DNA from: Aceticella autotrophica
Lineage (GTDB): Bacteria; Bacillota; Thermoanaerobacteria; Thermoanaerobacterales; Thermoanaerobacteraceae
NCBI RefSeq assembly: GCF_017357865.1
Contig: NZ_CP060096.1
Coordinates: 1,116,001-1,180,000, forward strand
Direction of reading: 5' to 3'
Length of the DNA: 64,000 nucleotides
Shown here: positions 13,691 through 63,634 of the stretch, in pieces
How positions within the stretch are numbered: position 1 is the first letter of the stretch
How the letters are laid out: the number at the start of each line of letters is the position of its first letter
Made by a program: the position numbers and the translations under genes
The notes under the pieces: model-generated
The model's input: the letters and a program-made list of their open reading frames with translations, nothing else
Databases searched by the model: none
What the model was told of the DNA's origin: nothing

Positions 13691-14143
13691 ATGGGAAACA
13701 ACTTGCTGCTAAAAATAAAGAAAACAAAAGATGCTATTGATTTGCCATTACCACAATACATGAGTACTGGTGCAGCTGGTATGGATTTATTTGCAAATGT
13801 GCATGAAAGTATAAATATAAAACCTTCTGAAATTAAATTAATTCCGACGGGTATTCAAATTCAATTGCCATCAGGATATGAGGCGCAAATACGTCCAAGA
13901 AGCGGGCTTGCACTTAATTATGGAATTACCTTGCTTAATACTCCCGGAACGATTGACTCAGATTATAGGGGTGAAATTAAATTAATCCTTATAAATTTTG
14001 GCAGTAAAGATTTTACAGTAAAAAGAGGACAAAGAATTGCTCAGATGATTATAAATAAAATAGAATTGCCTCAAATTATCGAGGTTATTGAACTTAATGA
14101 AACAGACAGGGGTCCCTCTGGTTTTGGTCATACTGGATTATAA
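13691..14143 (+). CDS. dut: dUTP diphosphatase
   Basis: Hydrolyses dUTP to dUMP, keeping uracil out of DNA. All five trimeric dUTPase motifs are visible: [37 protein letters not shown] and a C-terminal [10 protein letters not shown] (usual form RGxGGFGSTG). 150 residues; ATG 13691 follows AGGGTG, preferred to the GTG at 13682. Followed 11 nt later by a YlmC-type gene. Confidence 0.95.
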
Positions 14144-14154
14144 AGGGTGATAAT

Positions 14155-14391
14155 ATGAGATTAAGTGAATTTGGCAATAAAGAAATTGTTAATTTAAATG
14201 ACGGAAGAAGATTGGGGCTTATGGAAGATTCAGATTTAATAATAGATGAAAATACTGGGAAAATCAAATCTATTATTGTCTATGAAATAAAAGGTTCAAT
14301 TTTTAGAAATAAGATGGAAAATATAGAAATTCCTTGGGATGCGATTAAAAAAATAGGTAATGATATGATAATTGTTGAAGTCAAAATATAA
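14155..14391 (+). CDS. YlmC/YmxH family PRC-barrel protein
   Basis: A 78-residue PRC-barrel-like protein (MRLSEFGNKEIVNLNDGRRLGLMEDSDLIID, IPWDAIKKIGNDMIIVEV). Members of this family occur only in spore-formers and relatives, and B. subtilis ymxH lies near dapG as here. Function is not established. Start ATG has GGGTG upstream. Confidence 0.82.
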   Translation: MRLSEFGNKEIVNLNDGRRLGLMEDSDLIIDENTGKIKSIIVYEIKGSIFRNKMENIEIPWDAIKKIGNDMIIVEVKI

Positions 14392-33657: not shown

Positions 33658-33692
33658 AAAATAAGAAGTATCTACAAAGGAGGTGCAGGCAA

Positions 33693-35240
33693 ATTAACGT
33701 TAGTCCATTATTTATAGCAATTATTGCATTAATAGCCGTAGCAATTGGTCTTTTAATAGGGTATTTTATTAGAAAATTCATTGCTGAATCTAAAATAAAA
33801 AGTGCTGAAGATTTATCACGCACAATTTTGGAAAATGCTAAAAAAGATGGTGAAAATAAAAAAAGAGAATTGCTACTTGAAGCTAAAGAGGAACTTCACA
33901 GACAAAGGTCTGATCTTGAAAAAGAAATAAGAGACCGCAGAGGAGAACTACAAAGATTAGAAAGGCGTTTAATGCAAAGGGAAGAATCCCTTGACAGAAG
34001 AGCAGAGATAATCGAACAAAAAGATAGTTTGCTTGAAAAAAAGCAAAAAGAAATTAATGATTTGGAAAAAAAGATAAGTGAAATGCATCAAAAAGAAGTT
34101 GAAGAGTTGGAAAAAATTTCAGAATTAACAAGGGATGAAGCAAGAAATATTTTATTAGATGATGTAAGAAATGAAATCCAACATGACATTGCAATTATGA
34201 TTAAAACAATGCAGTTGAAAGCAAAGGAAGAAGCTGAGTTAAAAGCAAGAGAAATAGTTGCAACAGCTATTCAAAGATGTGCAGCTGATCATGCAGCAGA
34301 AAGTACAGTATCGGTTGTCACACTTCCTAATGATGAAATGAAAGGAAGGATCATTGGTAGAGAGGGTAGAAATATCCGGACACTTGAAACATTAACAGGA
34401 ATAGATTTGATTATTGATGATACACCTGAAGCTGTAGTTATATCTGGTTTTGATCCGATCAGAAGAGAAATAGCAAGGATAGCACTTGAAAAACTTATTG
34501 AAGATGGAAGAATCCATCCTGCAAGAATTGAAGAAATGGTTGAAAAGGCAAAAAGAGAAGTAGAAAATGTAATTATAAAGGCAGGGGAAGAGGCTACCTT
34601 TGAAATAGGTATTCATGGACTACATCCTGAGATAATTAAATTATTAGGAAGACTAAAATTCCGTACAAGTTATGGGCAGAATGTTCTTAAACATTCAATT
34701 GAAGTTGCACATTTGGCAGGACTTATGGCATATGAATTAGGTGCCGATGCAAACATTGCTAAACGTGCAGGTTTGTTACATGACCTTGGTAAAGCAGTTG
34801 ATCATGAAGTTGAAGGTCCCCATGTTATAATAGGAGCTGATTTAGCCAAAAGATATCATGAATCAGAACAGGTTATACATGCTATCATGGCACACCACAA
34901 TGATGTTGAACCGCAGACAGTTGAAGCAGTTTTGGTGCAATCTGCTGATGCAATATCAGCAGCAAGACCGGGAGCAAGACGAGAGACTCTTGAATCATAT
35001 TTAAAACGCCTTGATAAATTAGAAGGGATAGCTAATTCGTTTGAAGGTGTAGAGAAATCATTTGCAATACAGGCTGGACGTGAAATAAGAATAATAGTAA
35101 AACCTGAAATAGTCAATGATGAATCTGCTATACTATTAGCTCGTGATATAACGAAAAAAATAGAAAATGAATTAGAATATCCTGGTCAAATTAAAGTTAC
35201 AGTTATAAGAGAAACATTTGCAGTAGATTATGCAAAATAG
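33693..35240 (+). CDS. rny: Ribonuclease Y, with a probable ATT start codon
   Basis: Membrane-bound endoribonuclease that starts mRNA decay. Starting at 33693 the protein is 515 residues, the family's usual size, with the N-terminal transmembrane helix ([20 protein letters not shown]), a long charged coiled coil, a KH domain ([19 protein letters not shown]) and an HD domain with H363-D364 ([12 protein letters not shown]). AAAGGAGGTG ends 7 nt before an ATT codon. Between the in-frame stop at 33657 and a TTG at 33828 there is no ATG, GTG or TTG; the TTG start would remove the membrane anchor. ATT is therefore the likely start. Confidence 0.92.
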
Positions 35241-63226: not shown

Positions 63227-63255
63227 TTGTGATAAATTAATTTTTAATATATAAT
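63227..63255 (+). promoter_or_regulatory. Promoter of aroH-cmk
   Basis: TTGTGA (63227-63232), 17 nt, perfect TATAAT (63250-63255), about 25 nt before the start of transcription-to-start-codon leader of aroH. Confidence 0.65.
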
Positions 63256-63286
63256 ATAAAAAAGGATAGGGAAAGGAGAATGTTCT

Positions 63287-63634
63287 ATTAACGCAATTAG
63301 AGGAGCAATTACTACTGAAAATACAAAAGAGAAAATTTTTTCTGATACTGAGGAGCTGATAAAAAAGATTATCGAAGAAAATAATTTAAAAATAGATGAT
63401 ATTATTTCGATTATATTCAGCGCAACAAAGGATTTGGATGCGGCATATCCGGCTGAAGCTGTCAGAAATATTGGAATAACTACAATACCACTGATGTGCT
63501 TTCAGGAAATGAATGTAATTGGTAGCTTAAAGAAATGTATAAGAGTAATAATATATGTAAATTGTAATAACAACAGAAAAATTACACACGTATATTTAAA
63601 AGGCGCAAAAGTTTTACGTCCCGATATAATTTGA
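63287..63634 (+). CDS. aroH: Chorismate mutase AroH type, with a probable ATT start codon
   Basis: Converts chorismate to prephenate. Monofunctional AroH fold, 115 residues from 63287: NAIRGAITTEN (active-site arginine as in B. subtilis AroH), ATKDLDAAYPAEAVR, PLMCFQEM, LKKCIRVIIYV and VYLKGAKVLRPD. AGGAG ends 8 nt before an ATT codon that lines up, within one residue, with the Met of B. subtilis AroH. The nearest canonical start in frame is a TTG at 63434, which would delete a third of the enzyme. An out-of-frame ATG at 63280 opens only three codons. Confidence 0.9.
   Translation: MNAIRGAITTENTKEKIFSDTEELIKKIIEENNLKIDDIISIIFSATKDLDAAYPAEAVRNIGITTIPLMCFQEMNVIGSLKKCIRVIIYVNCNNNRKITHVYLKGAKVLRPDII

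Follow-up and report, generated by a model that had tools for sequence, protein, structure and literature searches.

The 64,000-nucleotide stretch of the Aceticella autotrophica genome analysed here (the window) contains a chorismate mutase gene, aroH, whose reading frame offers no canonical start codon where the protein should begin, raising the question of where its translation starts. The aroH frame, on the forward strand as are all window features described below, is open from position 63260 to its stop codon at 63632-63634 and is devoid of ATG, GTG and TTG until a TTG at 63434-63436. This TTG lies 49 codons past an ATT at 63287, and a protein begun at the TTG would be 49 residues shorter and lack the IRGA core. 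The ATT is preceded by the Shine-Dalgarno (SD) sequence AAAGGAG (63272-63278) and an 8-nt spacer, AATGTTCT (63279-63286); from 63287 onward the sequence reads ATT-AAC-GCA-ATT-AGA-GGA-GCA, with ATT-AAC occupying 63287-63292. The initial annotation had described both this arrangement and the lack of a canonical codon before the TTG correctly, and had proposed the ATT as the start. Read from the ATT, the coding sequence spans 63287-63634 (115 codons plus TGA), as judged by the onset of homology and by conservation in the family. Just 5' of the gene, at 63227-63255, is a promoter-like sequence matching the consensus (TTGTGA-17-TATAAT), and the leader alignment of the family shows conservation of the TATAAT-like box. 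No RNA structure of note was found in the aroH leader (consensus −1.8 kcal/mol).

The product is a type I chorismate mutase of the AroH family. It matches TIGR01796 with 130 bits (curated cut-off 82) over model positions 2-117 and PF07736 with 151 bits over positions 1-116, i.e. over the whole model and above the cut-off. In alignments with solved AroH structures, homology starts within one residue of the ATT, which corresponds to Ile3 of the B. subtilis enzyme and to residue 2 in AroH of C. thermocellum (1xho) and of Thermus (1ode). The initial annotation, which had placed the ATT at the initiator position of B. subtilis AroH, was thus one or two residues out. However, four relatives with a canonical start (L023, L025, L028, L034) have an ATG exactly at the position of the ATT, three residues before the [IV]RGA motif.

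We consider it very probable that translation of aroH begins at the AUU at 63287 by means of a strong SD, and that selection maintains this weak codon, as it does in infC, the gene for initiation factor 3 (IF3). The support for this start comprises the lack of a canonical codon in all 20 genomes of the family, coding constraint from the start codon on, the SD and its spacing, and a like arrangement in infC and in rny, the gene for RNase Y.

Start codons of aroH across the family

We compared the aroH start region in 20 genomes of the family, Aceticella autotrophica included, which represent three genera and are not independent, falling by eye into about seven lineages. The start position holds ATT in three and ATA in 17 of these genomes, and ATG, GTG and TTG are absent from it in all 20, even though ATA is a single transition away from ATG. 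In each genome, the frame lacks these three codons all the way from the upstream in-frame stop to the conserved core, and the next one is found 28-68 codons downstream, at a position that differs among genomes. The SD is likewise kept in all 20, at a distance to the ATT or ATA of 8 nt in 12 genomes and of 11 nt in the eight others, which belong to genus g3 and whose longer spacing counts against the reading. The start codon is always directly preceded by T and directly followed by AA. The non-canonical state has thus been maintained, behind a strong and properly spaced SD, over the evolution of three genera.

Four-fold synonymous sites differ at about 50-75% among the family genomes and are thus near saturation, which argues that the invariant SD, the T at −1, the AT of the start codon and the AA after it are under selection. 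The T contributes only weak evidence, as it is also common before sampled canonical starts (119 of 267). Purifying selection is evident in codons 2-49, upstream of the first canonical codon (pN 0.21-0.26 versus pS 0.59-0.77). Further, eight of the nine g3 genomes have an in-frame TGA two codons before the ATA, so that translation of the aroH frame cannot come from upstream. In these genomes the frame continues into cytidylate kinase (cmk), and the aroH-cmk junction contains neither ATG nor GTG, and a TTG in one fusion only, without an SD. Variation of the third base is by itself no proof of a start, since ATT and ATA would alternate at an internal isoleucine codon as well (isoleucine codon usage in the genome is 52% ATA, 39% ATT and 9% ATC). 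Conservation in 20 of 20 genomes nevertheless excludes chance and sequencing artefact.

Canonical codons in related genomes had been named at the outset as evidence that would speak against the ATT. Outside the family, aroH does start at ATG in the sister families f2 and f3, and no genome beyond the family showed the aroH arrangement when its pattern was scanned for across the class. Given these two observations, the simplest assumption is that the family ancestor had already lost the canonical start.

Two peculiarities of gene structure emerged from the comparison. aroH and cmk form one frame of about 330 codons in g3 (L011, L013-L019), where it opens with ATA, and in g4 (L038-L039), where it opens with ATG; in the window the two genes are separate. 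In genome G009 (L020, L021) aroH is split into two frames, probably by an assembly frameshift.

The out-of-frame ATG and other readings

A plain AUU start does not account for one feature of the leader, an out-of-frame ATG at 63280-63282 (ATG TTC TAT TAA), which is invariant in the 20 family genomes and always lies exactly 7 nt before the ATT or ATA. This conservation would be explained if AUU were the aroH start and the ATG served as a decoy or as a minimal upstream open reading frame (uORF) that lowers or regulates initiation, for instance by termination and re-initiation. In the three ATT genomes, ATG NNN TAT TAA indeed terminates on the AUU, and murA of the sister genus g3 has a comparable ATG-GGA-TGA just 5' of its own ATG. 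In the 17 ATA genomes, however, the ATG frame has no stop at this point and extends over 6 to at least 27 codons with no shared length, and the ATG is at a poor distance from the SD, making a decoy or uORF unlikely in our view. We also considered, and rejected, a conserved short uORF with its stop over the AUU, as this is found only in the three ATT genomes.

The ATG could alternatively be the point where aroH translation begins, with a +1 shift to the frame of aroH in the course of the initial two or three codons, as the initial annotation had anticipated in naming a frameshift as a possible objection. The product would be an AroH with an ordinary N-terminus, and the fixed position of the ATG is matched by the extra bases in the eight g3 genomes, which sit between SD and ATG and never between ATG and ATA. 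Against this, the SD is only 1 nt from the ATG in 12 of the 20 genomes, which is far too close, whereas in the same genomes it is 8 nt from the ATT or ATA; sampled canonical starts peak at SD distances of 7-8 nt. At the presumed slip position the codon is not constant (TTC, CCA, TGC, CCC, CTC, TCT, TCC), with +1 re-pairing possible in only some cases, and it is followed in the zero frame by TAT, which is neither a stop nor rare. aroH therefore does not fit programmed +1 frameshifting, which calls for a conserved slippery codon with an A-site codon that is slow or a stop, and for a zero-frame start backed by an SD. With SD spacing and the lack of a conserved slippery sequence both disfavouring it, we regard the frameshift as highly improbable.

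A start at the downstream TTG at 63434, which gene callers restricted to ATG, GTG and TTG would pick, or decay of aroH into a pseudogene, has a negligible probability, as this TTG lacks an SD, the next canonical codon is not shared among genomes and the stretch leading up to it is conserved, with the IRGA core inside. We give just as little weight to loss of the real start through an assembly error: murA and rlmN of Aceticella autotrophica look broken at homopolymers and the assembly probably contains indels, but the same aroH start region recurs in twenty separate genomes, and an assembly error is contradicted for aroH and for rny alike.

As to the two broken genes themselves, murA (L250:15896-15960; G000:C1:735896-735960) has no in-frame start, and an ATG with a good SD is out of frame by a single base, at a GGGG; its g3 relatives have an in-frame ATG, preceded by the conserved two-codon ATG-GGA-TGA. 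Either an assembly indel or real recoding may underlie this. rlmN (L256, minus strand, approximately 14130-14201) is interrupted at a stretch of seven T, one short of the eight that would keep the frame, and is intact in relatives, which suggests homopolymer indels in the Aceticella autotrophica assembly.

RNase Y and other probable non-canonical starts

The initial annotation had pointed to a second gene in the window that begins with ATT-AAC. This gene is rny (33693-35240), and an ATT start at 33693 is the best reading for it, in keeping with a phylum-wide pattern. Its extended SD, AAAGGAGGTG (33676-33685), leaves 9 nt between GGAGG and ATT. Within the order, rny has ATT or ATA wherever the start region is readable, the ATA in f3 being less certain. 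Among 80 further genomes drawn across the phylum (L164-L243), the SD-supported start position offers only ATT (45), ATA (4) or ATC (4) in 53; in the remainder there is only a canonical codon (14), both kinds (11) or neither (2). As a control for an isoleucine-rich N-terminus, we tallied codons by their distance from GGAGG (n=70): the codon is ATT in 41 of 70 at 7-9 nt, versus 2-7 of 70 at each of eight further distances in frame. Across most of the phylum, the AUU, AUA and AUC starts of rny follow an extended SD, AGGAGGTGA, that is close to perfect. In many of these genomes, AGGAGGTGA contains the in-frame stop TGA, two codons 5' of the ATT, so that translation cannot start further upstream. 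RNase Y thus appears to start at AUU, sometimes at AUA or AUC, in most genomes sampled across the phylum, which is more surprising than the case of aroH.

To place these genes in the context of the genome, we surveyed start codons in about 864 kb of Aceticella autotrophica, consisting of the window and forty 20-kb stretches (approximately 38% of the genome), so that all counts are sample counts. The survey covered 365 + 299 coding frames (about 660 genes) and yielded 481 genes with a canonical start and a clear SD and four with a convincing non-canonical start (infC, rny, aroH and nikR). infC starts with AGGAGGTGCGTATTT-ATT-AAC, an arrangement shared by infC across the order. The IF3 sequence, suggested as another check, is that of an ordinary IF3; it is the gene's own start that is unusual. 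nikR reads AAGGAGG-AATTACT-CTG (L110:121-180; G000:C1:1840121-1840180), with the CTG kept in 22 of 23 genomes of the order (L140-L162) and replaced by ATA in one. It probably starts at this CTG, with less certainty than infC, rny and aroH, because at several nikR loci the SD core is also directly followed by an ATG or GTG in frame. The ratio of 481 to four indicates that non-canonical starts are a property of a few genes and not of initiation in general in Aceticella autotrophica. The earlier proposal of a real feature of initiation in this organism therefore holds insofar as chance is excluded, but the feature belongs to specific genes in this lineage. We did not find the 16S tail or the initiator tRNA within the sampled stretches.

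Proposed mechanism and relation to known systems

In the mechanism we envisage, the strong SD would anchor the 30S subunit and set the initiator tRNA on the AUU (AUA in most relatives), and AroH would begin fMet-Asn-Ala-Ile-Arg-Gly-Ala. As IF3 discriminates against AUU and AUA, output would be a fraction of that from AUG, and the level of IF3, whose own gene starts at AUU, would set the output of aroH. For aroH, we infer initiation at AUU with fMet, low expression and IF3 dependence from sequence features; the AUU start of infC hints at shared control by IF3.

AUU or AUA starts of infC are known in E. coli, the Bacillaceae and S. aureus, and infC of E. coli is autoregulated. To our knowledge, conserved AUU/AUA starts have been thought to be very few, comprising infC and a handful of others. 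aroH resembles infC in having a conserved AUU start after a strong SD. The SD of infC is of the extended type, with complementarity over GGAGGUGA, as is that of rny; aroH has AAAGGAG followed by AATG and lacks this extension, which is typical of infC and of the S. aureus cases but not strictly defining. Unlike infC, aroH and rny encode no initiation factor, and any control by IF3 would act in trans.

In S. aureus, AUA and AUU starts have been mapped by ribosome profiling in cvfC1 (AUU), ccpN (AUA) and citZ (AUA), with about 10% of the output of AUG in poor medium and with conservation of the start for cvfC1 and ccpN (PMC13009471). aroH shares with these genes a weak AUU/AUA codon behind a strong SD. 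It differs in that other genes are involved, in that its SD is shorter (AAAGGAG, not extended) and in that its start is predicted from sequence. sigR of Streptomyces starts at GTC and is repressed by IF3 (PMC5472188); it has a non-canonical start in common with aroH, and codon, gene and phylum differ. A search of literature available without subscription yielded no earlier description of rny or aroH starting at AUU, and gave nothing decisive on extended codon-anticodon pairing. Non-AUG starts of the infC type are thus already known, and aroH is a further member.

What is added is a major endoribonuclease, RNase Y, that appears to use such a start in most of the sampled genomes of the phylum, and a metabolic enzyme, AroH, using AUU or AUA throughout a family. 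Gene callers limited to ATG, GTG and TTG would truncate both, depriving RNase Y of its membrane anchor and AroH of its first strand. It is conceivable, though we think it rather doubtful, that a start-codon regulon comprises IF3, RNase Y, NikR and AroH (or its fusion with cytidylate kinase), whose conserved AUU, AUA or CUG starts would make their synthesis vary in concert with the ratio of IF3 to ribosomes. If so, this regulon would couple mRNA decay and the supply of aromatic compounds and nucleotides to translation capacity, and its RNase Y part would hold across most of the phylum. These genes make it possible to test the idea that cells retain weak start codons as a means of setting or coordinating expression.
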